Notes under the pieces: generated by a model
Database searches by the model: none
Told to the model about the DNA's origin: nothing
What the model saw: only the letters and a program-made list of their open reading frames with translations
Shown here: positions 32,888-50,125 of the stretch, piece by piece
How the letters are laid out: the number at the start of each line of letters is the position of its first letter
Numbering within the stretch: position 1 is the stretch's first letter
Translations under genes and position numbers: made by a program
Assembly (NCBI RefSeq): GCF_014203045.1
Contig: NZ_JACHIF010000001.1
Coordinates: 744,001-808,000 of the forward strand
Direction of reading: 5' to 3'
Source: Prosthecobacter dejongeii
GTDB lineage: Bacteria > Verrucomicrobiota > Verrucomicrobiia > Verrucomicrobiales > Verrucomicrobiaceae
DNA length: 64,000 nt

Positions 32888-32888
32888 T

Positions 32889-35800: not shown

Positions 35801-36065
35801 CCGGAAGATGGTCATTCGCGGCACCAAGGAACGTCTCGTGCCTGTGCTCATGACCGCGCTGGCCGCTGGCATCGGGTTGATCCCGCTCGTGCTCGCTGCC
35901 GATCAGCCAGGCAAGGAGATCCTCCATCCCGTAGCCGTCGTCATCGTCGGCGGCCTCATCACCAGCACGCTGCTTGGCCTCGGCGTCACGCCCACTGTGT
36001 TCTACACCTTCGGGCGCAAGGCAGCCGCCAGTGCCATCGAGAACGATGCGCCTGCGTCTCATTGA
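32889..36065 (+). CDS. HME-RND heavy-metal efflux pump with VDDAxxDVEN signature, set B
   Basis: 1058-residue RND pump; the ATG at 32889 (MLNKMIHWALASRALI) is chosen because the open frame upstream lies inside the adaptor gene. N-terminal LPVEVLPDLTKPTVIILTEA and the LRSNSDVALSLVYAEF segment place it among heavy-metal pumps. TM4 reads LAVAIGMVVDDAIVDVEN, neither the CzcA type (DFG...DGA) nor the CusA type (VDAA), so the metal cannot be read from this signature. The C-terminal TM region is complete (GFIAVAGVAARNSIMLISHY). It carries a glycine-rich insert near residues 635-650 (EEGDGEGHSAGGRGRKE). Confidence 0.92.
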   Translation: MLNKMIHWALASRALIIGVSLILMVMGLKTATELPVEVLPDLTKPTVIILTEASGLAPEEVETRVTQPIESALMGVAGLTRLRSNSDVALSLVYAEFGWDTDIYKARMFVQERLQGVREQLPEGVQPFMTPVASLMGEILLVGVRSTIKEGEPGYLPPREVRSLADWTIKRRLQSISGIAEILNMGGGVKRIEIQPDPFKMQANGIGFDELEQAATEAANTTTGGFINTGPTEIMVRNLAMTVELDDIARTVIKKVNDRPISIGDVANVIWSVEPMRGDATVSQYPEKSATYGVIMSITKSPGFDTRALTEQIKVALDELNSTFPPGIETTLLFQQKDFIDNAIGNLTEAIRDGAIMVTIVLFLFLLNFRTTFITLMAMPLSFGITMLVFKWFGISVNSMTLGGLAVAIGMVVDDAIVDVENVFRRLRENAALPHPHPRLQVIAKASGEVRNSILYATVLIILVFLPLLGLTGVEGKLFAPIAIATIISMMASFIVSLTAIPVLCSILLNPKVGHEHKDGFLTRGMKWLLENTLLRFGLSQPFLMLGIVLVIVIAAFSLYPKMNKDFLPKFQEETALVAATAAPGTSLEEMNKISDVLEQQILSVEGVSKVGRRLGRAERGDHVVPVSTAEFDVDFRKEEGDGEGHSAGGRGRKEIIEDITKKLKTVPGVFAVVSGPLADRIGHMMSGVSAPVAVKVFGPDLEKLRQIGIEIQTIAKTIPGFEDCKLDQTSSIPQLRIEADRDRAKAYGIAPGKLNDQLSALIGGKEVAELREGQRAVNLVLRLPVEWRDSPDKIAELPIEAGGQRIPLSLVADVREAKGPNVIFRENSQRRFALAIKPTVQDVSNLVVKMRDEVTEKVKLPEGYFITFEGEFQAQQEATQRIATFTLVVLAVIAFLLYGYFRTPFFAIQVLCDIPLAMVGGLVFTYFKLNNISIATLVGFIAVAGVAARNSIMLISHYLHLMQHEGEGFTRKMVIRGTKERLVPVLMTALAAGIGLIPLVLAADQPGKEILHPVAVVIVGGLITSTLLGLGVTPTVFYTFGRKAAASAIENDAPASH

Positions 36066-36114
36066 CCCACCCCTTTCCGAATCGACGGAGGCTCAGGCTT
36101 CCGCCGCCAAGGCA

Positions 36115-36149
36115 AAACCAAACAAACCAAACAAACCAAACGAACCAAC
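36115..36149 (+). repeat. Short tandem repeat of a 9-nt unit in a leader region
   Basis: AAACCAAAC occurs three times in perfect tandem (36115-36141) followed by a degenerate fourth copy, ending 3 bp before the ATG of the gene at 36153. Changes in copy number would alter the leader and ribosome-binding region, but no such change can be seen here. Confidence 0.6.
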
Positions 36150-36152
36150 ATC

Positions 36153-36623
36153 ATGAAAAAACTGCTTACCACCACCCTTCTGACCCTCGCTCTGGCCTTC
36201 TCGGCGACCGCTGCTGACAAACATGACCACGAGCATGAAGCCAAAGCCGGACCTACCGGTGGCAAACTCATCACTGAAGTCGAACCCCACGTCGAGTTCT
36301 TTGTGAACAAGGACAAGAAGGTCGAAATCCGCTTCATCGACGACGACATGAAAGTCGTTGCTCCTGGAGCGCAAGTCATCAGCGTAACCCTTGGCGACCG
36401 CTCTGCTCCCACGAAGCTGAGCTTCACCAAAGACGGCGACAAGCTTGTCTCAGACAAGGCAGTTCCCGAAGGCAACGACCTCCCCACCGTGGTGCAGATC
36501 CGCGAGAAGGAAGGTGCCAAGGCAGTGACCGAGAAGTTCAACCTGAACCTCAACGACTGCCCTACCTGCAAGAACAAGGAATACGCCTGCACCTGTTCGC
36601 ACGGTGAAGAGGAGAAAAAGTAA
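36153..36623 (+). CDS. Secreted protein with His-rich N-terminus and C-terminal CxxC/CTC motif
   Basis: 156 residues. Signal peptide (KKLLTTTLLTLALAFSATAA), mature N-terminus DKHDHEHEAK rich in His, beta-rich middle, and C-terminal CPTCKNKEYACTCSHGEE. It is a paralogue of the protein at 29341: alignment holds over GPTGGKLITEVEPHVEFFVNKDKK and the Cys motif. It follows the set B pump after 87 bp. A periplasmic metal-binding or chaperone role is inferred. Confidence 0.7.
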   Translation: MKKLLTTTLLTLALAFSATAADKHDHEHEAKAGPTGGKLITEVEPHVEFFVNKDKKVEIRFIDDDMKVVAPGAQVISVTLGDRSAPTKLSFTKDGDKLVSDKAVPEGNDLPTVVQIREKEGAKAVTEKFNLNLNDCPTCKNKEYACTCSHGEEEKK

Positions 36624-36696
36624 CCTCTCGCCTGCGTCATGCCACAGCGCCGTCCCACCGTGAGGGCGGCGCTGCTGGCTGCGGGCACACACAGTT

Positions 36697-37065
36697 ATGA
36701 AACACTCGATTCTCTTTCTCATTGCCGCCCTCCTCCTGAGCTTCTGGCTTCCTTCGACCGCCGAAGCCAGACACCCGCGAGGCAGCACGATGACCGGCGT
36801 TGTGCAGAGCGTCGATCATGCCTCCCGCTGGATCGTTTTCGCCCAGGATGGCGGCCCTGTCCGCCATTTCGTTTACTCGGAGTGGGCCAAGTTCTGGCAC
36901 GACGAGCCAGAAGCCCTGCCTGCACATCTCAAGACAGGCATGCGAGTCCAGGTCAACCTGCACAACCCTCTCATCGGACCGGATTTTGTCACCCAGATCG
37001 TGCTGCTTAACAAACAAGGAGGAATCACAAGGCCAAAAAGCGGAAGGAGCGTGTCTGCACTATGA
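36697..37065 (+). CDS. Small secreted protein of unknown function
   Basis: 122 residues with signal peptide MKHSILFLIAALLLSFWLPS. The mature part (GVVQSVDHASRWIVFAQDGGPVRHFVYSE...FWHDEPEALPAHLKTGMRVQVNLHNP) looks like a small beta-barrel. It overlaps the next gene by four bases (ATGA). I recognise no named family; it is probably part of the set B metal operon. Confidence 0.55.
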   Translation: MKHSILFLIAALLLSFWLPSTAEARHPRGSTMTGVVQSVDHASRWIVFAQDGGPVRHFVYSEWAKFWHDEPEALPAHLKTGMRVQVNLHNPLIGPDFVTQIVLLNKQGGITRPKSGRSVSAL

Positions 37066-37610
37066 ATACCCGAACCACCTCTACCCGAAGCCGCCGGATT
37101 TCATTCCGCCGGATTTCCGCGCAGATAATCTGCCTTTTGCTCACCACTACTGGATCAGCGCTCGCTGATAACAGCATCAAGCTCCAGGTTGCCGCCAAGA
37201 GCGAGCACAACGACCCCAAAGGCAACAATCCGCAAGAGGTGCAAAGCCGCTGGCTTGAAATCTCGGTCACGGCCTTTCATCTCGAAAAGCCTGCCGCCGT
37301 TCGGCTCGAATGGGCGTTCTTTGGCGACAACCTCGACTCGAACAAGGTGGTTAAACATGAGGGCGGCACTGAGACCGTGGAACTGGTGCAAAGCAAAGAG
37401 GCCGACGCAAAGACCAAGCTCGTCAACTTCACCTTCACTCCTCGCCATTCGGTTCGCACCGGCAGCGGCAAGCGATCACTCTCAAAGGTCATTGAGGCCA
37501 CCGGTGTTCGCTATCACGCCTGGGGCGTGCGGGCCTTTGTGGACGGCAAACTCGCCGGTGAAGCCTACAGTGCGCCGAGCATCAAAAAACTCATGGGTGG
37601 AACGGATTGA
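37062..37610 (+). CDS. Secreted protein of unknown function
   Basis: 182 residues. A basic N-terminus (RTTSTRSRRISFRR) precedes a hydrophobic signal segment (ISAQIICLLLTTTGSALA). The mature part is beta-rich (SRWLEISVTAFHLEKPAAVRLEWAFFGDN...VKHEGGTETVEL). It shares four bases with the upstream small secreted gene. No family is recognised. Confidence 0.55.
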   Translation: MNTRTTSTRSRRISFRRISAQIICLLLTTTGSALADNSIKLQVAAKSEHNDPKGNNPQEVQSRWLEISVTAFHLEKPAAVRLEWAFFGDNLDSNKVVKHEGGTETVELVQSKEADAKTKLVNFTFTPRHSVRTGSGKRSLSKVIEATGVRYHAWGVRAFVDGKLAGEAYSAPSIKKLMGGTD

Positions 37611-37639
37611 AGCTCATGAAACATCCTTTCTCTCCGAGC

Positions 37640-37680
37640 GGAAAAATCCCGCCAGAGCTCTTGCACATTCTGGCGGGATT
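37640..37680 (-). terminator. Rho-independent terminator of the minus-strand His/Ser-rich gene
   Basis: AATCCCGCCAGA (37645-37656) pairs perfectly with TCTGGCGGGATT (37669-37680) around a 12-nt loop. Read on the minus strand the hairpin is followed by a run of five T. It lies about 30 bp after the stop of the gene at 37712. Confidence 0.75.
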
Positions 37681-37711
37681 GGTGAAATCCTCCGATTCTA
37701 TTCACTCCCCG

Positions 37712-38041
37712 TTAGTGACGGCTACGGCCGCCAAAATCGAAGTGAAATCCAGGCAGGCTGATATGGCCCCTGTTATCGCGGTGGTGGCTGGAGCGATGAG
37801 AGGGGCTGTGCCTGCCGTGACTGGAACCATGACGAGAGTCATAGCCGTGACTGCCACCACTCCCGTGGTTGGATCTGTGTCCCGAGTTGTGATGGCTGGA
37901 GTGGCCTCCATTGTGGTCGGAGCTATGACCGCTTCCATGACTGGAACGGCTGGAATGATGGCGGTCTCCCGCCTGCACTGCGGCAGGAGTGAAGATGGCG
38001 AAGCTGGCAGTGATCGCCAGCAGAGTGATGACCTTTCTCAT
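37712..38041 (-). CDS. Secreted His/Ser/Gly-rich low-complexity protein
   Basis: The ATG at 38041 gives signal peptide MRKVITLLAITASFAIFTPAA; a longer frame starts at 38077. The mature part of about 85 residues is almost entirely Ser, His, Gly and Arg (SSRSSHGSGHSSDHNGGHSSHH and similar), ending HISLPGFHFDFGGRSRH. The His density suggests zinc, nickel or copper binding in the periplasm. It is the only minus-strand gene in the metal region and has its own terminator, so it is probably controlled separately. Confidence 0.65.
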   Translation of the reverse strand: MRKVITLLAITASFAIFTPAAVQAGDRHHSSRSSHGSGHSSDHNGGHSSHHNSGHRSNHGSGGSHGYDSRHGSSHGRHSPSHRSSHHRDNRGHISLPGFHFDFGGRSRH

Positions 38042-38137
38042 AATGCGTTGGTTTTGGATTTGAGTCGTTACCGCCAAAGAGCGGCATGTAAGTCGGACGG
38101 GTTGCCGTCGCGGTTATTCATTTGATCCATTCCTCTC

Positions 38138-38461
38138 ATGAAAACTTTCATTCTCTTCTTCATCACAGCCCTTGCCGAAATCAGCGGTTGTTTCGCCACC
38201 TATGCTGTTTTGCGCCAAGGACGGCATCCTTTGTGGCTGCTGTTGGGCGCAGTGACCCTCGCGCTTTTTGCTTGGCTGCTGACACTGCATCCCGCAGAAG
38301 GTGCCGGGCGCATTTACGCGGCTTATGGTGGTGTTTACATCGCCGCATCCTTGCTCTGGCTTTGGAGGGTTGAGGGCATTGTTCCTGACCGCTTTGATTT
38401 CACTGGCGCTTTCCTATGCCTGCTTGGGGCGAGCGTCATCATACTCGCACCAAGAACTTGA
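38138..38461 (+). CDS. YnfA/UPF0060 family membrane protein
   Basis: 107-residue inner-membrane protein with four hydrophobic helices. The sequence matches the family closely: [20 protein letters not shown] at the N-terminus, [27 protein letters not shown] in the middle and [17 protein letters not shown] at the end. YnfA proteins have the SMR-transporter topology; their substrate is not firmly known. It lies 3 bp before the P1B ATPase gene and likely shares its transcript. Confidence 0.93.
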
Positions 38462-38464
38462 TTT

Positions 38465-40435
38465 ATGAACACACAAGACCACCCCGCCTCCGAATCCAAA
38501 TCCTGTGGCTCCTGCGAGCACGGGCACGATGAAACACCGCTGCCGCGCAATGCGCTCGTCATCATCTCCGGTGCGCTGCTTGGCAGCGGGATGCTGCTGC
38601 AATGGCTGAAACTCGGCCCCGTTCAGCTACACACGGCCTGCTTTGCCCTCGCCACACTGGCGGGAGGTCTGCTGGTTTTTCCTGCCGCCTTCAAGGCGCT
38701 TAAAAAAGCACGCCTCGACATGAACGTCCTGATGACCGTAGCCGTCACGGGAGCGTGGCTCGTGGGCGAAGGCGCTGAAGGAGCGGCTGTGGTCTTCCTC
38801 TTTGCTCTGTCTGAAATGCTTGAGTCTTGGAGTGTGGGTCGTGCGCGACGTGCCATCGCCTCCCTGCTGAAACTCACGCCGCAGACCACGCTCGTGCGCG
38901 GAGCCGATGGTGTTACCAAAGAAATGCCCGTGGCAGAAGTCGTCGTGGGAGCGGAGATCAGCGTGCGCAGCGGCAGCAGTGTTCCTTTGGATGGTGAGGT
39001 CATTGCCGGTGAGTCTGCCGTGAACCAAGCGCCTATCACTGGCGAGTCCGTGCCAGTGGAAAAGAAGCCCGGTGACCCCGTGTTTGCGGGCACCATCAAC
39101 GGCGAAGGCTCGCTCACCGTGCGTGTCACCAAAGCGGCAAGCGACAGCACTCTCGCACGCATCATCAAGCTCGTGGAGGAAGCCGAAGAGCAGAAGGCAC
39201 CCACGCAGCGCTTTGTGGACAAGTTTGCCGCCATCTACACGCCTGCGATTTTTTTGGTGGCGTTGTTAGTGGCCCTGCTGCCGCCATTGTTCATGGGTGG
39301 CGCGTGGTCAGAGTGGACTTACCGCGCACTCGTGCTGCTCGTCATCGCCTGTCCCTGTGCTCTCGTCATCGCCACACCTGTTTCGATTGTCTCCGGCCTC
39401 ACTGCGCTCGCACGACGCGGCGTGCTCATTAAAGGCGGTGCCTATTTGGAAGCGGTGGGCAAATTGCGTGCTCTCGCCGTGGACAAGACCGGCACCATCA
39501 CGCAAGGCCGCCCCCAGATCACCAGCGTCATTCCCATTGGCGATATAGCAGAGGAAGATGTCCTGCGTCGTGCCGCTGCCATTGATGTGCATTCCGAGCA
39601 TCCTCTGGCGAAAGCCGTCGTCGCTGCTGCACAGGCCAAGGGTATCACCTGGATCGAGTCTTCTCAGTATAAATCCGTTACGGGTCGAGGAGCCACCGCC
39701 ATTATTGACGGTCACCCGCACTTCATAGGCAATCACAAAATGGCGCATGAACTGGGGCTATGCAGTCCGGATATCGAGGCCCGCCTAACTGAGATCGAAA
39801 TCAAAGGCCAGTCCCTGGCCATCCTCGGCCACGCGCCGCATGAAGGCTGTAATGGCAAAGTGCTGGGCATTCTTAGCATAGGTGACACCATCCGGCCAGA
39901 AGCCGCCAATGCCCTCACCCTGCTACATAACGCGGGCATCGAAAAAGTTGTCATGCTCAGCGGCGACAATCAGCGCACCGTCGATGCCATCGCACGTCTT
40001 GCAGGCATTGACGAAGCCTATGGCGATCTCATGCCTGAGCAAAAGATCGAGCACATACGCCGCCTCATGACAGAGCATCACTATGTCGGCATGATTGGCG
40101 ACGGAGTGAATGACGCTCCCGCGCTGGCCCTTGCCAGCGTCGGCATCGCCATGGGAGCCATCGGCAGCGACACCGCCATCGAGACTGCTGACATGGCCCT
40201 TATGAAAGACGACCTTACCCGCGTGGCTGAAGCCATTGCACTGGGCCGCCGTACCCTGCGCATCATTCAGTTCAATGTCACCTTCGCACTCGTTGTGAAA
40301 GCCATCTTTCTCATCCTCGCCTTCACCGGCCACACCAGTCTGTGGCTTGCTATCCTGGCGGATACCGGCGCGACGTTGCTGGTCATCATGAACGCACTCC
40401 GGCTTCTTGGCGCTGCACAAACCACCAAGCAGTAA
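38465..40435 (+). CDS. P1B-2-type heavy-metal-translocating ATPase (Zn/Cd/Pb-like)
   Basis: 656-residue metal pump. Features in order: short Cys/His-rich N-terminus (CGSCEHGHDE) instead of a full HMA domain; actuator motif TGES; membrane CPC (Cys296-Pro-Cys298); phosphorylation motif DKTGT (Asp340); HP motif (HSEHPL); MIGDGVNDAPAL hinge. The last helices contain VVKAIF and LADTGATLLVIMNALRLL, i.e. the Lys and DxG residues of the P1B-2 class exporting Zn, Cd and Pb. It would remove divalent metals from the cytosol to the periplasm, where the RND systems take over. Confidence 0.93.
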   Translation: MNTQDHPASESKSCGSCEHGHDETPLPRNALVIISGALLGSGMLLQWLKLGPVQLHTACFALATLAGGLLVFPAAFKALKKARLDMNVLMTVAVTGAWLVGEGAEGAAVVFLFALSEMLESWSVGRARRAIASLLKLTPQTTLVRGADGVTKEMPVAEVVVGAEISVRSGSSVPLDGEVIAGESAVNQAPITGESVPVEKKPGDPVFAGTINGEGSLTVRVTKAASDSTLARIIKLVEEAEEQKAPTQRFVDKFAAIYTPAIFLVALLVALLPPLFMGGAWSEWTYRALVLLVIACPCALVIATPVSIVSGLTALARRGVLIKGGAYLEAVGKLRALAVDKTGTITQGRPQITSVIPIGDIAEEDVLRRAAAIDVHSEHPLAKAVVAAAQAKGITWIESSQYKSVTGRGATAIIDGHPHFIGNHKMAHELGLCSPDIEARLTEIEIKGQSLAILGHAPHEGCNGKVLGILSIGDTIRPEAANALTLLHNAGIEKVVMLSGDNQRTVDAIARLAGIDEAYGDLMPEQKIEHIRRLMTEHHYVGMIGDGVNDAPALALASVGIAMGAIGSDTAIETADMALMKDDLTRVAEAIALGRRTLRIIQFNVTFALVVKAIFLILAFTGHTSLWLAILADTGATLLVIMNALRLLGAAQTTKQ

Positions 40436-41105: not shown

Positions 41106-41135
41106 TGAGGGGTTTGCGTGCAGGCGGAGTTGCAC
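41106..41135 (+). promoter_or_regulatory. ECF-type promoter element, copy 1
   Basis: TGAGGGGTT (41106-41114), an 11-bp spacer and GGAGTTGCAC (41126-41135) lie 43 bp ahead of the ATG at 41178. The same two boxes with the same spacer length and almost the same distance to the start codon occur at 42948-42977; the surrounding sequence is unrelated. They are candidate -35 and -10 elements for the ECF sigma factor encoded at 42360. Confidence 0.65.
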
Positions 41136-41177
41136 TGCATGAACGCGATTAATGCGTCCGACCAAATAAATCTAACC

Positions 41178-41468
41178 ATGAAAATGAAACTTACCCTCCT
41201 CGTCGCCACTCTCCTTTTCGGCTTCGCTTCCACCAGTGTTCAAGCGGTCCCGTCTAACTGGAGTTTCGCCAACGGCCAAACGTCCGCCAAAAGCGGTAGC
41301 GTCAAGTCGGAACGAATGTCCTGTTGCGATACCAAAACGAGCTACAGTACAACTCCGGGTGGCCGTGGCCTCCAAGCAAACAAGAGCATTGTGTGTAACA
41401 CTGGCTGTAGTGTACGCCATGCCGCTAAGAACTGCACGGCTGCTGAACGCAAGCAGTGTGCCAACTAG
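41178..41468 (+). CDS. Small secreted Cys-rich protein
   Basis: 96 residues; ATG 41178 gives signal peptide MKMKLTLLVATLLFGFASTSVQA. The mature part has seven cysteines, among them MSCCDTKT and VCNTGCSVRHAAKNCTAAERKQC. No family recognised. It has its own ECF-type promoter element and a strong terminator, and stands directly before the anti-sigma/sensor/sigma trio, so it is probably a metal-induced periplasmic protein. Confidence 0.6.
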   Translation: MKMKLTLLVATLLFGFASTSVQAVPSNWSFANGQTSAKSGSVKSERMSCCDTKTSYSTTPGGRGLQANKSIVCNTGCSVRHAAKNCTAAERKQCAN

Positions 41469-41482
41469 GAACAACCTACCAG

Positions 41483-41517
41483 CCCGTCAGGTATCAGGTG
41501 ACCTGACGGGTTGTTTT
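41483..41517 (+). terminator. Rho-independent terminator
   Basis: CCCGTCAGGT (41483-41492) pairs perfectly with ACCTGACGGG (41501-41510) around an 8-nt loop, followed by TTGTTTT. It lies 15 bp after the Cys-rich gene and would separate it from the sigma-factor trio. Confidence 0.85.
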
Positions 41518-41547
41518 CAGTCACATCATCCACCATCTTTCTCCTCC

Positions 41548-41868
41548 ATGAATGACGACGAAATCGATTGTCTAATCCGCCAGACTCATCCCAAACCCGA
41601 GTTTGGTTCTTCCTTTCAGCGTGAGGTCTGGGGGAAAATCGCTGTGGTTGAGCAACATTCGTGGTCAGCTCAATGCAAGCAGTGGAGTCAGATGTTTTTC
41701 CTCTGGCTTGCTCGTCCGATGCCAGCACTTGCCACCGTGGCAGTCATGCTCGCTGCCGGTATCAGCCTCGGCAACCTCACTGCACCCGACCATAGCGATT
41801 CCATGCGTGCCGCATACATCGAGTCCATCAATCCGCTGAAAGCAACCAACGCTTCCATGCAGCCATGA
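41548..41868 (+). CDS. CnrY-like membrane anti-sigma factor
   Basis: 106 residues with a cytosolic N-terminus of about 65 residues (MNDDEIDCLIRQTHPKPEFGSSFQREVWGKI), one TM helix (MPALATVAVMLAAGISLG) and a short periplasmic tail. Sequence identity to CnrY is not obvious; the call rests on topology and gene order with the CnrX-like and ECF sigma genes downstream. It would hold the sigma factor at the membrane until the sensor responds to metal. It overlaps the sensor gene by four bases. Confidence 0.6.
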   Translation: MNDDEIDCLIRQTHPKPEFGSSFQREVWGKIAVVEQHSWSAQCKQWSQMFFLWLARPMPALATVAVMLAAGISLGNLTAPDHSDSMRAAYIESINPLKATNASMQP

Positions 41869-42344
41869 AACGTGGATTTTTGATCTTCCTCACCGCACTA
41901 CTTGTCGGCATTGTCGGTTATTTTGTCACGCGCCAGCCGCGCTGCGACACCAGCGGTGAAGAGATGGCTACCCATGACGGCGGCTCTCTGCTGCCGGAGC
42001 TGAAATGGCTGCACCATGAGTTGAAGCTTACAGACGAGCAGTTTGCGAAGGTTAAGGAAAGACACCTTGCCTACCGCCCCACCTGCGAGGCGCTGTGCAT
42101 GAAGGTAGCCGCTTCACAGAAGAAAGTTCAGACGCTTGCGCAGGCAAGAAACATCGCCTCACCTGAACTTTCTGCTGCACTTGAGGAACAGGCCGCCGTG
42201 CGGGCAGAATGCCAGAAAGCCATGCTCAAGCATCTGCATGAAACGGCTGCCGTCATGTCGCCCAACCAGGCGAAGCACTATCTTGACACCATGCTTCCGC
42301 AGATCATCGGCCCAGATGCCGGGCACAGTCCCGGTGGCCACTAA
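41865..42344 (+). CDS. CnrX-like periplasmic metal sensor
   Basis: 159 residues: N-terminal anchor (GFLIFLTALLVGIVGYFV) and a periplasmic four-helix domain of the Spy/CnrX family. The text ELKWLHHELKLTDEQFAKVKERHLAYRPTCEALCMKV, then SPELSAALEEQAAVRAECQKAMLKHLHETAAVMSPNQAKHYLD is very close in pattern to CnrX, including the His and Glu positions used to bind Ni/Co there. It should sense periplasmic metal and release the sigma factor through the CnrY-like protein. Confidence 0.75.
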   Translation: MKRGFLIFLTALLVGIVGYFVTRQPRCDTSGEEMATHDGGSLLPELKWLHHELKLTDEQFAKVKERHLAYRPTCEALCMKVAASQKKVQTLAQARNIASPELSAALEEQAAVRAECQKAMLKHLHETAAVMSPNQAKHYLDTMLPQIIGPDAGHSPGGH

Positions 42345-42359
42345 CCGTTCTCGCCGCGC

Positions 42360-42929
42360 ATGACATCCTCATCTGATGACGACATCCAGCTCATGCAGCA
42401 GCTCGCCAATGGTGAAGACCTTGCCTTGAACACGCTCATGGCACGCTGGCGCGGGCGAGTCGCCGCCTTCCTTCTGCGCATGGTGGGCGATCATGCGACG
42501 GCGATGGACCTCACCCAGGAGAGCTTTGTGCGCCTCTATACCAGCCGTCACCGCTACCAGCCCACAGCCGTTTTTTCGACGTATCTCTTTCACATCGCTG
42601 CCAATCTGGCCCGAAGCCATATTCGCTGGAAAGGCAGGCATCCGACCGTGCCACTCACCGACAACGAAGGCGCTATGATCCACGAGTCTGCTGATCCGCA
42701 GTTGTCCCCTGATGATGCGGCGGCTCTGCATGAGAAAACCACGCTCGTGAACCAAGCCATCGCCATTTTGCCCACCGACCTGAGGGAGGCGCTGCTGCTC
42801 TTCACCGTCGAAGACATGAGCCACACCGAAGTGGCAGCAGCCCTCGGCTGCTCCGCCAAAGCCATCGAAGTTCGCATCTATCGGGCGAGGCAGATGCTGA
42901 GGGGGATCATCGCAAAACAGGCCCCCTGA
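42360..42929 (+). CDS. ECF RNA polymerase sigma factor (CnrH-like)
   Basis: 189-residue group 4 sigma factor. Region 2 is visible as AMDLTQESFVRLYTSRHRYQPTAVFSTYLFHIAANLARSHIRW, and region 4 as LPTDLREALLLFTVEDMSHTEVAAALGCSAKAIEVRIYRARQMLRG. It follows the CnrX-like sensor after 15 bp. The Y-X-H gene order matches the cobalt/nickel cnr system. Its likely targets are the two matching promoter elements at 41106 and 42948, the second of which starts right after this gene. Confidence 0.88.
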   Translation: MTSSSDDDIQLMQQLANGEDLALNTLMARWRGRVAAFLLRMVGDHATAMDLTQESFVRLYTSRHRYQPTAVFSTYLFHIAANLARSHIRWKGRHPTVPLTDNEGAMIHESADPQLSPDDAAALHEKTTLVNQAIAILPTDLREALLLFTVEDMSHTEVAAALGCSAKAIEVRIYRARQMLRGIIAKQAP

Positions 42930-42947
42930 ACTTTTTCGACGGAATCT

Positions 42948-42977
42948 TGAGGGGTTCTTCACTGCCTGGAGTTGCAC
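42948..42977 (+). promoter_or_regulatory. ECF-type promoter element, copy 2
   Basis: TGAGGGGTT (42948-42956), 11 bp, GGAGTTGCAC (42968-42977), 43 bp ahead of the ATG at 43021. The boxes are identical to copy 1. This would drive the YHS-like gene and possibly the whole set C pump operon downstream. Confidence 0.65.
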
Positions 42978-43020
42978 GAGTTGTCAGACACTCACAAAAC
43001 CAACGACCTCCTCATCTATC

Positions 43021-43278
43021 ATGAAACTCACCCTCGCCCTGCTCTCCAGCCTGCTTCTCAGTACTGGCCTTGCTTCCGCCGCTGATACTGCTGTACCAGC
43101 CACTTATCCGCTCAAAACATGCGTCGTCTCTAACGAAGACCTTGGCACCATGGGCAAGCCTGTTAAAGTCACCTACGAAGGCACCGACGTATATCTCTGC
43201 TGCAAAGCCTGCACAAAGGACTTCAACAAAGAGCCTGCTAAGTTCGTCGCCAAGGTGAAGGCGGCAGAGAAGAAATGA
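43021..43278 (+). CDS. Secreted YHS/TRASH-like metal-binding protein
   Basis: 85 residues: signal peptide MKLTLALLSSLLLSTGLASA, then a single domain with YPLKTCVVSNEDLG...VKVTYEGTDVYLCCKACTKDFNKEPAKFVAKV. The spacing of Cys residues (TCVVS and CCKAC) and the F..EP..F end are typical of YHS/TRASH heavy-metal domains. It would bind copper or a similar metal in the periplasm and hand it to the set C adaptor. Just upstream lies the second ECF-type promoter element. Confidence 0.75.
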   Translation: MKLTLALLSSLLLSTGLASAADTAVPATYPLKTCVVSNEDLGTMGKPVKVTYEGTDVYLCCKACTKDFNKEPAKFVAKVKAAEKK

Positions 43279-43324
43279 GCTTTGTCAGCGTTATACGACA
43301 CGAGACCTGCTGCTTTTGACTCCC

Positions 43325-43690
43325 ATGAGACACGCCTGGATCAGAATCCTCACCGCTGCCATCTTCCTGATGGTGCAGGTGGCAGGCGTTTCTGCAACAG
43401 GCCCGTCATGCAGGGCGGAGCAGCCAACAACAGTTCGTTGCTCGCTGCCTTGCTGCTCCGGTGCCATCTGTGGATGTGGTATGGCTCCGAATAGTGAGCC
43501 GGTAAAGCCCGCGCCTGTGGCTCCGGTATCGCATATTCAGGAGCTCAAGTTCATGCCAGTGCTCATGAGTGTGGTCGTGCTGCGCTTTTTTCCGCTCCTT
43601 TCCCAGAAACCGCTGAGGCTTCTGGCAACGGATACCTTCCTTCCGCATTGCCCGCCAGCTTTGGCGCTGCATTGCGCCCTCCTCATCTGA
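43325..43690 (+). CDS. Small secreted Cys-rich protein preceding RND set C
   Basis: 121 residues from ATG 43325. Signal segment (WIRILTAAIFLMVQVAGVSA), then a compact Cys-rich stretch (GPSCRAEQ...RCSLPCCSGAICGCGM), a Pro-rich linker and a second hydrophobic stretch (FMPVLMSVVVLRFFPLL). It resembles in layout the proteins at 23227 and 29873, which also precede TolC genes. Function unknown. Confidence 0.55.
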   Translation: MRHAWIRILTAAIFLMVQVAGVSATGPSCRAEQPTTVRCSLPCCSGAICGCGMAPNSEPVKPAPVAPVSHIQELKFMPVLMSVVVLRFFPLLSQKPLRLLATDTFLPHCPPALALHCALLI

Positions 43691-43772: not shown

Positions 43773-45047
43773 ATGAAGACATCACAATCACTCTCTGCCC
43801 TGGCTCTGTCCCTTGCAGTAGTATTCACGGCTCAGGCCGAAGACAGCGCTACTCCCGTCGCCCCAGCATTCATCGAACGTCTGGTCAAAGAGGCGGTCAC
43901 GACACATCCTTCAGTCGAAGCCGCTCAGGCGCGTGCCCAGGCTGCCGCTTCTGCCATCGGAGCCTTGCGGCTGTGGGAAGATCCGCAGCTCGGCCTCGGT
44001 ACCCTGTTTGCCAGCCAGATGAACCGCCAGGGACAGGGTGACATTGTCACAGGCATCGAACAGATGTTGCCGCGTCCCAAGCTTTATCAGGCGGAAAAAC
44101 GCCGCGCCATTGCCGAACAGCAGGTGCAGCAAGCCACAAAGCGGCAGACGGCGAATGAGATCGCCCTCGCTGTCGCTCAATCAGTGCTGGAGCTGGCACT
44201 GGCGGATGAAGTCGTGAATCTTCAGTCGGAGAACCTTGGCTGGCTGCAAACCATCGTGAAAACCGCCGAGGAACGTGCCAAAAGCCCTGATGCGACAGCC
44301 ACGGAAACACTGCGGCTGGAAAGTGAGTTGGCGGTGCAAACGCAGACAGTGGAGGCAGCAAAGCGTCAGCGTACGCTGTATGCAACCACGCTGAATCTGC
44401 TGATGGGACGGGCGACAAACAGCGCATGGCAACGACTCTCGCTGCCGATGAAAGTACCGGAACTTACCAGCACCGCCGCATTGAAGGCACGCCTGGAGCA
44501 TGACAATCCCAAGCTCGCCGCGTTACGCCATCAAGTGGCGGGTGCGCAGGCTGAGACGGATGCTGCGAAAGAGAAGCGCAAGCCAGCTTTTTCAGTGGGC
44601 GTCCAGGTGAATGCCTACTCGGCGGGGAGCAGCCACGATGCGATGACCATGTTTACGGTAGGAATGAACCTACCCTGGTTCAACCGCTCCGCTTATCGAG
44701 CCGACATCGCTCGTGCGGAAAGCATGCGTGCTGCCGCGCAAGGTGATCTGGCCGCCGAACAGCGTAAACTGTACACGCAGTTCACACTTTTGATGACTGA
44801 GGCGGAGAACAACCGCCGTCTGGCCGCTGCCTATACCAGCGAGGTACTGCCGAAGACGGAAAAGACCGTTGAGACCCTGCAAAACGCCTGGGTGTCATCC
44901 AAGGCCACACTCCTTGAGGTACTCGAAGCCCGTCGCGCTTTGCTCCAGGCGCGTCAGGAGCAAAAACGGGCGCTTGCGGCTCAAACCGTAGCGGCTCAAG
45001 CACTGTCCGCGCTCACTGGCAGCCTCGTCAAACCTTCATCTCGTTAG
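43773..45047 (+). CDS. TolC-family outer membrane efflux protein, set C
   Basis: 424 residues with signal peptide (SQSLSALALSLAVVFTAQA). OEP repeats: LRLWEDPQLGLGTLFASQMNRQ and MFTVGMNLPWFNRSAYRADIARAESMRAAA; helices AQARAQAAASAIGA and EQRKLYTQFTLLMTEAENNRRLAAAY. It is more similar in style to CusC-like channels of copper/silver systems. The adaptor gene begins 3 bp after the stop. Confidence 0.88.
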   Translation: MKTSQSLSALALSLAVVFTAQAEDSATPVAPAFIERLVKEAVTTHPSVEAAQARAQAAASAIGALRLWEDPQLGLGTLFASQMNRQGQGDIVTGIEQMLPRPKLYQAEKRRAIAEQQVQQATKRQTANEIALAVAQSVLELALADEVVNLQSENLGWLQTIVKTAEERAKSPDATATETLRLESELAVQTQTVEAAKRQRTLYATTLNLLMGRATNSAWQRLSLPMKVPELTSTAALKARLEHDNPKLAALRHQVAGAQAETDAAKEKRKPAFSVGVQVNAYSAGSSHDAMTMFTVGMNLPWFNRSAYRADIARAESMRAAAQGDLAAEQRKLYTQFTLLMTEAENNRRLAAAYTSEVLPKTEKTVETLQNAWVSSKATLLEVLEARRALLQARQEQKRALAAQTVAAQALSALTGSLVKPSSR

Positions 45048-45050
45048 GCC

Positions 45051-46754
45051 ATGAAGAACCTCATCACACTTTTGTTCATCATCGCTGCACTCGCCGGAGG
45101 CTGGTTCCTCCGTGACAAATTTGGAGGCACTCCCATAACTGCCGCGCCGTCGTCCAGTGAGCGAAAGGTGCTCTTTTACCAGAGTGCCATGCATCCGTGG
45201 ATCAAGAGCGACAAGCCAGGGCGCTGCACGATCTGTGGCATGGAGTTGACGCCCGTCTATGAAGGTGAAAAGGGTTTCGACGCCTCTGGTGGCGATGTCG
45301 TGCCGCTCACACAAAATCAAATCCAAGTCCTCCATGTGCAAACAGTGGAGGCCAAAAAGCAGCTGCTCACCAAATCACTGCCAGTCTCCGGTATCATCAA
45401 TGACGATCAGCGTCGCCACCGCATCCTGAGCGCGTATGTGGACGGGCGCATCGACCGCCTGTTTGCCAATCATCATGGCGTCGAAGTCGTCGCGGGCGAG
45501 CCGCTGGCACTGCTTTACAGCCCCACGCTTTTGCAAGCAGAACGTGAATATCGGCAACTCACTGGTGAGCTGAAAAAGAACACCGCGCTACGGCTGCGTC
45601 AATTAGGCCTCACTGAAAAACAAATCGTGGCTCTCGACTCCAAACCTGCGGATGCACTGAACTCAGAAATCCTCGCGCCACTTACTGGCACCGTGGTCGA
45701 GCATGAGGTCTTTGAAGGCCAGTATGTGACCATGGGACAGAAGCTTTTTGCCATCGCTGATTTCAGTGTCATGTGGTTTTTGTTCAATGCCTATGAGCAA
45801 GACATGCCATGGATCAAGGTCGGACAAAAGGTGCAGATCACCACACCATCAGTGCCGGGCAAAGTCTTCACAGGTGAAATCACCTTCATTGATCCGAACT
45901 TTGATGAAACCACACGCTCCACCCAGGTGCGTGTCGAACTGCCGAATCCGATAGTCGAAGGTCGCCGCGAATTGCTTCACCGACTTTATGCCGAGGGAAC
46001 GGTGAAGGTGGACTTACCGGAAGTGCTCACGGTGCCAAAGTCCACCGTCATCCAGACTGGACCAGAAGCCGTGGTCTATGTTGATCAAGGTGGAGGTGCC
46101 TACGCACGAAGTGTGGTGAAGATCGGACGACGTGGTGACACCTTGCTGGAGGTGCTCTCTGGCATCAAGGCTGGCGATAAGATCGTAACGAACGGCAACC
46201 TTCTGATTGACGGCCAGGCGGAGATGAACCGTTCTTTTGCATCACCAATGGAACCCATGGCACCCGCCACGTCTATCGCCGAGCTGACAGCGCCACAGAG
46301 CAAAGCTATCAGCAGTTTTATCAAAGTCGCTGATGCCATGGCTGCCACGCTTTCCAATGATGATCTTGCCGCTTTCAACAAAGCCAGCGAAGCCGCGATG
46401 GTGCAGACAGGCGATCTCATCACCGCCTTGAGCACGAATCCCGAATGGAAACCCAAACTCGATGCACTCGACAAAGCGCGACACTTTCACGGCTTTGCGG
46501 ACATCAAGCAGGCGCGTATCGCCTTCCACACCTTCACGGTCGCCACCACCGCCCTGCTGGAACCGCTACGCATGGCGAAAGGCGCTCCTGAGTTCAAAGT
46601 CTGGGAATGCTTCATGGTGGATCAAATCGTGCCAAAGGTGCCCGCCAAAGGCCGCTGGATACAGCTCAGCACCCGCGCCGGGCACAGTCCTTTCTTCGGC
46701 AGTGACATGCTGGAGTGCGTGAAGGAAATCAAACCTGGGGAAGTGTTGCCATGA
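45051..46754 (+). CDS. CusB-like adaptor with heavy-metal-binding domain and C-terminal DUF3347-like domain
   Basis: 567 residues. After an N-terminal anchor (ITLLFIIAALAGGWFL), a heavy-metal-binding YHS-like domain reads YQSAMHPWIKSDKPGRCTICGMELTPVYEG. The membrane-fusion core follows (RIDRLFANHHGVEVVAGEPLALLYSPTLLQAEREY; LAPLTGTVVEHEVFEGQYVTMGQKLFAIADFSVMWFLFNAYEQDM; VPKSTVIQTGPEAVVYVDQGGG). The last 150 residues form a helical DUF3347-like domain (MAATLSNDDLAAFNKA...HFHGFADIKQARIAFHTF...WECFMVDQ). It would take copper/silver from the periplasm to the pump. The pump gene overlaps by four bases. Confidence 0.9.
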   Translation: MKNLITLLFIIAALAGGWFLRDKFGGTPITAAPSSSERKVLFYQSAMHPWIKSDKPGRCTICGMELTPVYEGEKGFDASGGDVVPLTQNQIQVLHVQTVEAKKQLLTKSLPVSGIINDDQRRHRILSAYVDGRIDRLFANHHGVEVVAGEPLALLYSPTLLQAEREYRQLTGELKKNTALRLRQLGLTEKQIVALDSKPADALNSEILAPLTGTVVEHEVFEGQYVTMGQKLFAIADFSVMWFLFNAYEQDMPWIKVGQKVQITTPSVPGKVFTGEITFIDPNFDETTRSTQVRVELPNPIVEGRRELLHRLYAEGTVKVDLPEVLTVPKSTVIQTGPEAVVYVDQGGGAYARSVVKIGRRGDTLLEVLSGIKAGDKIVTNGNLLIDGQAEMNRSFASPMEPMAPATSIAELTAPQSKAISSFIKVADAMAATLSNDDLAAFNKASEAAMVQTGDLITALSTNPEWKPKLDALDKARHFHGFADIKQARIAFHTFTVATTALLEPLRMAKGAPEFKVWECFMVDQIVPKVPAKGRWIQLSTRAGHSPFFGSDMLECVKEIKPGEVLP

Positions 46755-49700
46755 TTGAGACCATCATTCATTGGAGCCTGAAAAACCGTTTCTTAGTCGC
46801 TTGTGCTGCACTGCTGCTTATCGCGCTGGGCGTGCGAGCCATTTACCTCACACCTGTCGATGCAATTCCCGACCTCACGGAGAACCAAGTGCTCGTCTAT
46901 GGCGAGTGGATGGGCCGCAGCCCGCAGGAGGTGGAGGATCAGGTGACGTTCCCGCTTTCGACTGGCCTGCAAGGTCTGGCAGGCGTCAAAGAGGTGCGTG
47001 CGACTTCGATGTTCGGCTTCTCACTCATCACCATCATCTTCGAGGACAAGGTGGACACCTACTTTGCACGAGCGCGAGTGTTGGAGCGGTTGAACTACTT
47101 GCAAGGCTCCATGCCTGAAGGTGTGAAGCCGCAGCTTGGCCCTGATGCCTCCGGCCTCGGCTGGGTGTATCAATACTACTTCGATGTCGATGCCTCCAAA
47201 GCAAAGGACGGCGGCTATGATCTCGCGGAGCTTCGTTCGCTGCAAGATTGGTATGTGCGCTACCAACTCGCCAGCGTGCAAGGTGTGGCAGAAGTGGCGA
47301 GCATCGGAGGTTTTGTGAAGCAGTATCAGGTCGAGCTAAACTCCACCCAGATGCGCATGTCGAACGTCACACTCATGGATGTGATGACGGCGGTGCAGAA
47401 TGCGAACCTCAATGTCGGTGGCAAGGTAGTGGAGGAAAATGGGGCCGAGTTCGTACTGCGTGGCATCGGCCTCGTCACAAGTGTCGAAGACCTGGAACTC
47501 GTCACCGTGAAGGCAATGGGGGGCACACCCATTTACTTGAAGGACATCGCCACCGTGCAGATCGGTGGCGACTTTAGACGCGGTGCGCTTGATTTAAATG
47601 GCCATGAAGCCGTGGGTGGCACCGTGGTCATGCGCACTGGCGAAAACGCCAAAGCCGTCATCGAGCGCATCAAGGAAAAGATCGCACAGATCGCGCCCAG
47701 CCTGCCACCTGGTGTCACCATCAAGCCCTTCTATGACCGCAGTGAGTTGATCGACAACACCATTGGCACGCTTAAGCACGCGCTGCTGGAGGAGTTCATT
47801 CTCGTCACGTTCGCACACATCATTTTTCTCTGGCACTTCCGCAGCATCCTCATTGTAACACTGCCATTGCCGATCTCGATCTTGATCTCCTTCCTGCTGA
47901 TGAAGGAGTTTGGCATTACCAGCAATATCATGTCGCTCACCGGCATCGCCATCGCCATCGGCGTGCTGGTGGATGCCGCTATCGTCGTCACAGAGAATGT
48001 CATCCGACACTGTGAAGAAGCTGAGCACAAAAAAGGCGGGCGGCTAAACTCTAAAGAGACCTGGGATGTCACGCTCGTTGCCTGCACACAGGTCGGCAGG
48101 CCCATCTTCTTCGCCATGGCGATCATCATCCTCGCTTTTGTGCCGGTGTTTGCGCTCAGCGGTCAAGAAGGCAAACTGTTCCATCCGTTGGCCTTCACGA
48201 AGACCTTTGCCATGATCGGCTCCACTCTGCTTGCGGTGACACTGGTGCCCGTGTTGTGCTCGTTACTTGTACGCGGGCCGTTTCATTCAGAGGAAAGCAA
48301 CATCGTGATGAAGTTCCTGCTCCGTTTGTATGAGCCAACTCTCAACTGGGCACTCAATCATCGGAAAACGGTCATCACGGCAGCCATGTGTATCCTCATG
48401 GTAGCTTTGCTCACCGCTTTTGGCCTGCCACGCGCCACGGTGAAGGGCATCCGCGATGCTGGCTATCCGCGTCTCAGTGAGATTGTCACTGGTTTTGGCA
48501 AAGAATTCATGCCTCCGCTCAATGAAGGCAGTCTGCTCTACATGCCTGTGATGATGCCAAAAACCGGCCTCAAAGAGATCCAGCGCGTCATGTCCTGGCA
48601 GGACGCTGTCATCGCCGCGACTCCCGAAGTCGAGTCTGTCGCGGGCAAGCTGGGCCGCTTTGAAACCGCAACCGATCCCGCGCCCACGGAGATGCTGGAA
48701 ACGACGATCATGCTCAAACCTGAGTACATCCGCGATGGTCGCTGGAGCGTAAAACGCAACCCTGCATGGCGTGAAGGCATGACAGTGGAAAAACTCAAAG
48801 CCGAACTAACTGAAAAGATGAAGCAAGTGCCTGGCTATGTGCCAGCCTTCCTGCAACCCATCGAGAACCGCATCCTCATGCTCTACACTGGCATTCGAGC
48901 GCAGGTCGGCGTGAAGATCTATGGTGACGACCTCGATAAGATTCAGCGCAAAGCCTTCGAGATCGAAAAACTTATCAACAGCATCGAAGGAGCTGCCGGA
49001 GTATCGCCCTCACGCGTGCAGGGAAAGCCCTACCTCAATATCCAGGTGGATCGCCAATCTATGGCCCGCTATGGCCTCAGTGCCAAGGATGTGCTTGATG
49101 CCGTGGAGATTGCCATCGGTGGCAAGAACGTCAGCACCACCATCGAAGGTCGGCAGCGCTTCCCCATCCAGATCCGCGTGCAACGCGGCGAGCGTGACGA
49201 CATCGAGAAACTCAGCAGCATCCTTGTTGCTGAACGTCAGGGCATGAGTGCATCCGGTGCCGATCCGTTGGGAAGTGGCGGAGGCATGACCGGTGGCACG
49301 GGTGCAGCACCAGCCGCAGGTATGGCATTGAGCTCGGGAAACACTCCCGTCACTTATATCCCGCTTGGCATGGTGGCGAAGATCACCCGTGAAGTTGGTG
49401 CCAATGAGATTGCCAGTGAGAACGGACGACTTCGTTCCTACGTTCAGGCGAACGTGCAAGACCGAGACCTAGGCGGTTTCGTTCAGGAGGTCGAGCAGAA
49501 ACTCAAGGCCATCAATTGGGAAGGCATGACCTACAAAATGACCGGCGAGTATGAAAATCAGCGCCGTTTCGTTCAGACGATGCAGGTTGTCTTTCCCATC
49601 GTACTGCTCATCATCTTCGTGCTGCTCTATATCGTGTATCACAGCGCACTGGAGGCCGCTCACGTCATGCTCGCCGTGCCCTTCGCTTTGAGTGGTGGCG

Positions 49701-50125
49701 TGCTGCTGCAAAAACTGCTCGGTTACAACTTCAATGGAGCCGTCTGGGTCGGTTACATCGCCCTCTTTGGCACCGCTGTTCAAACCGGCGTCGTCATGGT
49801 GGTGTATCTGGAGGAGACCGTGAAAGCCCGCATGGCGCAACTTGGAGCCGCTTTCGCCTATAGTGACCTTGTACAGGCCGTGAAGGACGGCGCACGCTTG
49901 CGCCTGCGCCCAAAAGTGATGACCGTTGCCACCATTGTCGCCTCCCTGCTGCCGATCATGTGGAGCCACCGTCAAGGATCTGAAGTCATGCAACCCCTCG
50001 CCACGCCCGTCATCGGCGGCATGATCTCCAGCTTGATCCACATTCTTATTGTCACTCCAGTCATCTTTCTCTGGCTACGAGGGCGGGGGTACCATGATAA
50101 AAACGACGCGATGAAAACCTTTTAA
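46751..50125 (+). CDS. HME-RND efflux pump of the CusA type (Cu/Ag), set C
   Basis: 1124-residue RND pump; ATG 46751 overlaps the adaptor stop (ATGA). N-terminus IHWSLKNRFLVACAALLLIALGVRAIYLTPVDAIPDLTENQVLVYGEWMGRSPQEVEDQV is typical of CusA. TM4 reads GIAIAIGVLVDAAIVVTENVIRH, i.e. the VDAAIVxxEN signature of pumps for monovalent Cu and Ag. A Gly/Ala/Met-rich insertion (GGGMTGGTGAAPAAGMALSSG, about residues 843-865) is longer than usual in the second periplasmic loop. The C-terminus is complete. Confidence 0.93.
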   Translation: MIETIIHWSLKNRFLVACAALLLIALGVRAIYLTPVDAIPDLTENQVLVYGEWMGRSPQEVEDQVTFPLSTGLQGLAGVKEVRATSMFGFSLITIIFEDKVDTYFARARVLERLNYLQGSMPEGVKPQLGPDASGLGWVYQYYFDVDASKAKDGGYDLAELRSLQDWYVRYQLASVQGVAEVASIGGFVKQYQVELNSTQMRMSNVTLMDVMTAVQNANLNVGGKVVEENGAEFVLRGIGLVTSVEDLELVTVKAMGGTPIYLKDIATVQIGGDFRRGALDLNGHEAVGGTVVMRTGENAKAVIERIKEKIAQIAPSLPPGVTIKPFYDRSELIDNTIGTLKHALLEEFILVTFAHIIFLWHFRSILIVTLPLPISILISFLLMKEFGITSNIMSLTGIAIAIGVLVDAAIVVTENVIRHCEEAEHKKGGRLNSKETWDVTLVACTQVGRPIFFAMAIIILAFVPVFALSGQEGKLFHPLAFTKTFAMIGSTLLAVTLVPVLCSLLVRGPFHSEESNIVMKFLLRLYEPTLNWALNHRKTVITAAMCILMVALLTAFGLPRATVKGIRDAGYPRLSEIVTGFGKEFMPPLNEGSLLYMPVMMPKTGLKEIQRVMSWQDAVIAATPEVESVAGKLGRFETATDPAPTEMLETTIMLKPEYIRDGRWSVKRNPAWREGMTVEKLKAELTEKMKQVPGYVPAFLQPIENRILMLYTGIRAQVGVKIYGDDLDKIQRKAFEIEKLINSIEGAAGVSPSRVQGKPYLNIQVDRQSMARYGLSAKDVLDAVEIAIGGKNVSTTIEGRQRFPIQIRVQRGERDDIEKLSSILVAERQGMSASGADPLGSGGGMTGGTGAAPAAGMALSSGNTPVTYIPLGMVAKITREVGANEIASENGRLRSYVQANVQDRDLGGFVQEVEQKLKAINWEGMTYKMTGEYENQRRFVQTMQVVFPIVLLIIFVLLYIVYHSALEAAHVMLAVPFALSGGVLLQKLLGYNFNGAVWVGYIALFGTAVQTGVVMVVYLEETVKARMAQLGAAFAYSDLVQAVKDGARLRLRPKVMTVATIVASLLPIMWSHRQGSEVMQPLATPVIGGMISSLIHILIVTPVIFLWLRGRGYHDKNDAMKTF

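Follow-up and report, generated by a model that had tools for sequence, protein, structure and literature searches.

The window analyzed here, a stretch of 64,000 nucleotides from Prosthecobacter dejongeii (NZ_JACHIF010000001.1, positions 744,001 to 808,000), encodes an extracytoplasmic function (ECF) sigma factor at 42360-42929, preceded by the gene for a predicted metal sensor and followed by genes for a CusA-type resistance-nodulation-division (RND) efflux pump. Two copies of the bipartite element TGAGGGGTT-N11-GGAGTTGCAC are located on the + strand, at 41106-41135 ahead of the sigma operon and at 42948-42977 behind the sigma gene. A first-pass annotation had considered this element a candidate recognition sequence of the sigma factor and predicted both autoregulation and control of the pump. 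The analysis presented below indicates that both copies are very probably promoters of the sigma factor encoded between them. The features of the locus, in window coordinates, are the following.

41106-41135, + strand: promoter 1 (predicted, autoregulatory), with a -35-like box GAGGGGTT at 41107-41114, an 11-nucleotide spacer and a -10-like box GGAGTTGCAC at 41126-41135
41136-41177, + strand: predicted transcript start region and 5' leader, with the start probably at about 41139-41143 and a weak stem at 41143-41146/41154-41157 that is stronger in many relatives
41178-41468, + strand: small secreted cysteine-containing protein, first gene of the sigma operon
41548-41868, + strand: anti-sigma-like protein of 106 residues in the CnrY position, with a hydrophobic stretch from residue 61
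41865-42344, + strand: predicted CnrX-fold periplasmic metal sensor, with H67, C74, C78, C116 and H123 conserved in clades A, B and C (defined below)
42360-42929, + strand: ECF sigma factor in the CnrH position
42948-42977, + strand: promoter 2 (predicted target promoter), with a -35-like box GAGGGGTT at 42949-42956, an 11-nucleotide spacer and a -10-like box GGAGTTGCAC at 42968-42977
42978-43020, + strand: predicted transcript start region and leader of promoter 2, with a stem at 42978-42981/42990-42993 that is not significant in the window
43021-43278, + strand: YHS/TRASH-like small secreted protein, below the Pfam cut-off
43316-43690, + strand: cysteine-rich small protein with a signal-like N terminus and a probable ATG start at 43325, in agreement with the start in relatives
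43773-45047, + strand: TolC-type outer membrane factor
45051-46754, + strand: CusB-type adaptor with a heavy-metal-binding domain
46715-50125, + strand: CusA-type RND pump, with three methionines aligned to CusA M573, M623 and M672 conserved

The sigma factor scores above the Pfam cut-offs for Sigma70_r2 and Sigma70_r4_2, has one cysteine in its whole sequence, and matches CnrH (4cxf) at 3.8e-13, with eight other ECF sigma sequences scoring better. The place, size and single hydrophobic stretch of the anti-sigma-like protein fit the CnrY type, and no convincing family match was found for the small cysteine-containing protein at 41178-41468. In two related loci (loci carry L numbers and genomes G numbers), L036 (L036:2076-2693, contig 12 of the same genome, G000) and L044, a single open reading frame (ORF) beside a clade B-like sigma gene spans both the anti-sigma-like part and the sensor part, which supports the view that the two proteins act together. 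The fusion in L036 was called from blastp matches of the 205-residue product to P0001 (1.7e-4) and P0002 (4.5e-14); a Pfam search of this product gave no hit.

Both copies of the element are exact, at 19/19 specified bases, as described in the first-pass annotation, and they are its sole matches in the window: no third place with at most 3 mismatches was found in 64 kb (0.02 expected), and none of 100 dinucleotide shuffles of the window contained two copies. The spacers and flanks of the two copies are unlike, again in agreement with the annotation. A matrix built from 28 sites of relatives, with the window sites excluded, yields 33.4 bits for each copy, compared to 9.8 bits for the runner-up place in the window, which is below the best scores in five mono-shuffled windows (11.8-14.9 bits); the matrix scan identified no further targets in the window. 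A search of the whole genome (5,995,932 bases), as had been proposed for further copies, returned four places with at most 3 mismatches, and the reversed control gave no hit. Besides the window pair, these are a place on contig 5, ahead of a sigma paralogue, and one on contig 8 that has 3 mismatches, lies within an ORF of the opposite strand and was taken as a chance match. The leading T of TGAGGGGTT is variable, leaving GAGGGGTT-N11-GGAGTTGCAC as the conserved core. The second box ends 42 bp before the ATG at 41178 and 43 bp before that at 43021, so that the equal distance noted in the annotation is numerically correct; it is a coincidence and not a constraint, given that, among relatives with the same type of sigma factor (clade A below), this distance varies, being 43-65 bp for the site before the sigma operon, 49-62 bp for the site just downstream of the sigma gene, 60 for a far copy in L061, and 23-27 bp for extra sites before pump operons. 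The layout is that of a generic ECF promoter, with two boxes separated by a constant 11-nucleotide gap, a variable spacer sequence, and a position 23-65 bp before an ATG.

The window was compared with a first set of 56 related genomes, each of which gave at least one ECF sigma match at E 1e-10. The 55 stretches examined were picked by hand, 54 around listed sigma matches with an identity of roughly 40% or higher (a selection of these matches) and one, L038, around the contig 8 motif, where there is no sigma gene. Together with the window, this collection includes 55 sigma loci, which were assigned to clades by tree: clade A with 15 loci (support 100/98), clade B with 17, clade C with 17 (C1, 10; C2, 7), and 6 others. 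L036 and L044, which are outside the tree owing to truncated reading frames, were assigned from motif and identity, and the tree support for the B group (93/73) and for the C2 group is weak. The source genome itself carries all three kinds of sigma factor, A in the window, B-like on contig 12 and C on contig 5.

A de novo search of all 5-base word pairs with gaps of 8-20 bases, in which the motif was not used as input, recovered the element from the surroundings of the 15 sigma genes of clade A: the top word pairs are parts of GAGGGGTT-N11-GGAGTTGCA, each present in 20-21 of 29 regions, compared to a maximum of 3 after one shuffle per region. Upstream of the sigma operon, a site with at most 2 mismatches is present in 13 of the 14 evaluable clade A loci, the window included (L040 has 4 mismatches), and a second such site lies 540-1250 bases past the sigma start in 12/15 (L040 has 3; L061 has an exact copy further off, at +2809). 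By comparison, in 197 shuffles of upstream regions the best match to each of the three clade motifs always had 5 or more mismatches. Among sites picked at no more than 3 mismatches, a choice that biases the comparison in favor of the boxes, the two boxes of 13 upstream sites show pairwise identities of 96% and 94%, compared to 37% for their spacer; for 18 downstream sites, the boxes reach 95% and 85% and the spacer 35%.

The occurrence of the element also follows that of the sigma gene across genomes. In the first set, 19 of the 56 genomes have the pattern when up to 2 mismatches are allowed (reversed controls, 5 hits); at up to 1 mismatch, it is found in 13 of the 14 genomes with a clade A sigma gene, counting by hand and including the partial gene of G017, vs. 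none of the 42 others (Fisher 7e-12). The second set consisted of 189 genomes from the same order, 49 of them shared with the first set; the pattern with at most 1 mismatch is present in 17 (reversed controls, 2 hits) and a close sigma homologue (E 1e-70 or better) in 18. The proposal that the element is an ECF sigma recognition sequence is supported by this comparison: the pattern occurs in 15/18 genomes with the close homologue vs. 2/171 without (Fisher 2e-17) and, in the 140 new genomes, in 5/7 vs. 2/133 (Fisher 1e-6). Two genomes have the pattern and lack such a homologue: in G079, a sigma gene is cut at the end of the stretch (74% identity over 104 residues), and in G190, a genome 77% complete, the site precedes a YHS gene, with no sigma gene within the 3 kb examined. 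Both sites were also seen in three previously unused genomes (G124, G163 and G182), one at about -1210 to -1265 and the other at +585 to +589.

In a separate observation, four loci (L064, L161, L162 and L164, in G047, G182, G066 and G079, respectively) hold a clade A sigma gene in another family, together with the motif variant GAGGGATT..GGAGTTGCAC; their spacers are identical or almost so, and the module may have moved horizontally.

Diverged sigma clades mostly have correspondingly diverged motifs, with the same geometry and in the same places. The clade B motif is AAGGGTTT-N11-GGTGTTTGTC, and class B is the best-matching class, at 4 mismatches or fewer, in 12/16 evaluable upstream regions (L069 tied with A) and 13/17 downstream regions of clade B loci; L073, L074 and L076 have no upstream site, and L036, L044, L045 and L080 no downstream one. 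In clade C, the upstream motif is GAGGGATC-N11-GGGGTAGCAC, found with at most 2 mismatches in 11/17 loci and with 4 mismatches in four more, one of them tied with A; L090 has only a weak site with a 12-base gap, and the stretch of L086 lacks the upstream sequence. Downstream of clade C sigma genes, no C site with 4 or fewer mismatches was found, and L052 has a weak A-like site. In region 4 of the sigma factor, KA[IV]E or KV[VI]E is followed by V in clade A, by T in clade B, and by L, M, I or V in clade C. The helix that contains this variable residue reads the -35 box, and the residue itself may take part in that reading. Together with the conserved boxes, the variable spacer of fixed length and the placement before the same genes, the shift of the motif with the sigma clade in most loci lends further weight to recognition by the sigma factor.

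Two arrangements among these loci are worth recording. The contig 5 locus of the source genome (L037; G000, C5:294270-294299) is a third sigma module, of the clade C type, with its own motif GAGGGGTC..GGGGTAGCAC. In G029 (C7:65428/65505) and G020 (C543:9495/9572), two clade B motifs lie on opposite strands, 77 bases apart, upstream of the sigma gene, as if one sigma factor drove divergent transcription.

Several points weigh against the assignment of the element to the sigma factor and of the module to the Cnr type. The relatives are not independent samples, which applies to all counts, and the loci that served to define motifs B and C are also those in which these motifs were counted, a circularity from which only the shuffle-controlled word-pair count is free. 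Promoter 1 of L061 is outside the evaluation, the contig starting too near the sigma gene, and the downstream site of L064 has 4 mismatches. G010, G108 and G137 encode a close sigma homologue but their upstream site has 2 mismatches, that of G108 lying at -876 and not at about -1240. Of the six other sigma loci, five have no site with at most 4 mismatches and an 11-base gap, L079, with a B-type site, being the sole one that does (L083 has a weak site with a 12-base gap). Two clade C sigma factors, of L051 and L086, share the region 4 V with clade A, and thus that residue alone does not set the motif. Finally, the anti-sigma-like protein matches neither CnrY nor any family or solved structure, and no Foldseek hit of the sensor model has E below 0.001.

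As for the sensor, its Pfam assignment is Metal_resist (PF13801; 46.6 bits, cut-off 29.2). A single-sequence AlphaFold2 model (mean pLDDT, the predicted local distance difference test score, 72.5) contains an N-terminal helix followed by short, long, long and short helices, in agreement with a membrane-anchored sensor that has the four-helix hairpin of CnrX. The top 15 Foldseek hits of this model in the PDB are all CnrX or NccX (best E 5e-3), and these two proteins also occupy the first nine rows of VIA-align (Z 8.1-9.3, root mean square deviation 2.7-7.0, 104-131 residues aligned), where Z below 13 is rated weak for helical bundles; the phmmer matches to NccX and CnrX have E of just 0.02-0.07. 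H67, C74, C78 and H123 are present in 44/44 sensors and C116 in 43/44 (14 from clade A, 13 from B and 17 from C), a count that excludes L036, L045 and five rows from other loci; among the excluded rows, L045 lacks C74, L055 lacks C116, L054 lacks C116 and H123, and L079 is aligned in a wrong reading frame. In an alignment with Escherichia coli CusA, with positions counted by hand at an offset of 8, the pump of the window has methionine at the positions of M573, M623 and M672, residues that we take to bind Cu or Ag. The conserved cysteines of the sensor and the methionine triad of the pump suggest that the metal is Cu(I) or Ag(I) rather than Ni or Co.

As far as its sequence can tell, the locus belongs to a variant of the known CnrYXH plan, and its two promoter-like elements are a conserved, sigma-linked pair. 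The two-promoter plan has been established experimentally for CnrH of Cupriavidus metallidurans, where cnrYXHCBAT is transcribed from the CnrH-dependent promoters cnrYp and cnrCp, located 24 and 25 bases upstream of the genes (PMC9045368). The window resembles CnrYXH and NccYXH of C. metallidurans in the Y-X-H order of its anti-sigma-like, sensor and sigma genes and the predicted CnrX fold of the sensor and, with respect to that same account of cnr, in the location of its predicted promoters, one ahead of the regulatory genes and the other ahead of the efflux genes; this likeness refers to gene plan, fold and promoter placement. Unlike cnr, the window has an extra gene for a small cysteine-containing protein at the start of the operon and YHS and cysteine-rich protein genes before the pump; moreover, its sensor contains the conserved Cys74, Cys78, Cys116, His67 and His123, and its pump is of the CusA type with the methionine triad, not a Ni/Co pump. 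The pump resembles that of E. coli CusCBA in that the CusA homologue has all three aligned methionines and the adaptor is of the CusB type. The E. coli cus genes are controlled by a two-component system rather than by an ECF sigma factor, whereas the pump genes of the window adjoin an ECF sigma module. A link between an ECF sigma factor and copper, predicted for the window, is shared with CorE of Myxococcus xanthus, described as a copper-dependent ECF sigma factor with its own cysteine-rich domain and without a linked anti-sigma factor; the same text reports CorE-like proteins with this domain in two Verrucomicrobia (PMC3107203). A CorE-type sigma factor was nonetheless rejected for the window, where the sigma factor has a single cysteine and anti-sigma-like and sensor genes are linked to it. 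A literature search of titles and abstract openings, which covered few subscription papers, found no paper on a verrucomicrobial CnrX-type sigma factor or on this motif, nor any ECF promoter motif for this bacterial group, and the available parts of four papers on ECF sigma factors (PMC8103513, PMC3817407, PMC10880074 and PMC7406223) do not mention Verrucomicrobia.

The sequence and the structural model show the exact repeats with their placement and conservation, the co-divergence with the sigma factor, the predicted sensor fold and the pump type. On this basis, the CnrX-fold sensor (41865-42344) would bind a soft metal in the periplasm, probably Cu(I) or Ag(I), and the metal-bound sensor would loosen the putative membrane anti-sigma protein (41548-41868). 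The freed sigma factor would then take RNA polymerase to both promoters; transcription from promoter 1 would amplify the sigma operon itself, and that from promoter 2 would give rise to the YHS protein, the cysteine-rich protein and, by presumed read-through, the TolC-CusB-CusA pump; transcription would start about 4-8 nucleotides after the second box. The autoregulation predicted in the first-pass annotation is supported by the layout, in which the motif precedes the operon of the sigma gene itself.

The prediction of pump control is likewise supported by the layout, with the YHS, cysteine-rich and TolC genes of the window closely spaced on one strand, but there is no motif site before the cysteine-rich or TolC gene according to the matrix scan of the window, so that the pump genes, without a site of their own, would depend on read-through from the YHS gene promoter. 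In L056, L062, L063, L065 and L066, the YHS gene lies some 2-6 kb away from the cysteine-rich gene-TolC unit (the intervening stretch of L056 contains a P-ATPase-like ORF), and an extra A site with 0-2 mismatches is located 23-27 bases before the cysteine-rich gene, the product of which is 33% (L065) and 32% (L066) identical to that of the window. These separate copies provide the strongest argument for including the pump in the sigma regulon. They also count against the alternative that the sigma promoters are real but promoter 2 drives the YHS gene only, with the pump under other, unrelated control, as does the tight, same-strand spacing of the three genes in the window. This alternative would explain the lack of a site before the cysteine-rich and TolC genes, and in several relatives (e.g., L057, L039 and L067) a YHS gene follows the site with no pump homologue in the stretch examined; altogether, we regard it as unlikely.

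Less likely still is that a conventional activator or repressor, such as a metal-responsive DNA-binding protein, uses the elements as its operators, with a housekeeping sigma factor reading promoters nearby. A fixed two-box element before co-regulated genes would fit a dimeric regulator, and the survey did not extend to regulator genes elsewhere in the genome; however, the boxes are neither inverted nor direct repeats of each other, their occurrence tracks the sigma gene over the 189 genomes, the motif shifts with the clade of the neighboring sigma factor in most loci, and the leader hairpin (see below), where present, keeps a fixed distance from the second box, as a transcript start would. 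Exact identity inside one locus could also reflect a recent local duplication or a small mobile repeat without regulatory meaning, an explanation to which we give next to no credence, given that the spacers and flanks of the copies differ and that the same pair, with unlike flanks, occupies the same two places in other genomes.

If the two elements are sigma promoters, this locus provides a testable sigma/promoter pair for this bacterial group and a predicted copper or silver response. New compared to the known plan are the motif family that changes with its sigma factor, the combination of a cysteine-containing sensor with a CusA-type pump, and a candidate 5' hairpin. Since the sigma clades and motifs diverge largely in step, they represent a natural experiment in the evolution of ECF promoter specificity, and the sigma/motif set is a source of possibly orthogonal pairs.

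At many sites, the sequence about 4-28 bases after the -10 box folds better than shuffled sequence. In 24-base windows compared with mono-shuffles, the lowest mean z is -3.5 at 6 bases for A upstream sites, -2.7 at 4 for A downstream, -2.6 at 4 for B downstream and -2.6 at 4 for C upstream; the B upstream hairpin is weak (-0.9), and mean z is near 0 from 12 bases on. In a test against dinucleotide shuffles, for which the sites were grouped into clusters at 75% identity, a mean z of about -1 or lower was obtained for 5/6 A upstream, 10/12 A downstream, 6/8 B downstream and 11/11 C clusters, and for 3/8 B upstream clusters and 0/4 clusters of pump-operon and other far copies. We rejected the hairpin as a general leader feature, with 152 control genes near zero at fixed starts (mean z -0.06 to -0.29); with the best of five starts, the controls reach a mean z of -1.27, with 23% below -2. 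It was likewise rejected as part of promoter recognition because the pump-operon and other far copies are devoid of it. The stem sequences vary (e.g., ACGC/GCGT, CGCC/GGCG, TGCCTG/CAGGCA, GTCCG/TGGAC), and MAFFT did not align the stems between sites, hence no count of covarying pairs. The hairpins of the window itself, at -4.0 and -3.0 kcal/mol, are not significant, either singly (z -1.06 and -0.24) or clustered (-0.45 for the cluster of the window and L056, +0.68 for window site 2).

A role of the hairpin in mRNA stability is plausible. A broader interpretation, which we put forward tentatively and with some doubt, is that at least three sigma/promoter lineages have co-changed and are possibly not interchangeable, and that many of their RNAs keep a 5'-end stem-loop in which the bases change and the pairing is kept, an RNA-level layer (stability or decay) of the metal response. 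If real, the hairpin would give metal-response mRNAs a built-in 5' structure, which is directly testable. The sequence ATGAACGC, directly after the -10 box of promoter 1 and common to most clade A loci, is probably part of the start region and the hairpin. A leaderless start at the ATG that most clade A relatives have 3 nucleotides after the promoter 1 -10 box was rejected because this ATG is out of frame or soon followed by a stop in several loci (e.g., L057, L058 and L062).

Upstream of the sigma operon, at 32724-40435, where the matrix scan of the window found no motif copy, are encoded a YnfA-family protein, a heavy-metal P-type ATPase and a second pump of the CusA/CzcA type, with VDDAI vs. 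VDAAI in the first.

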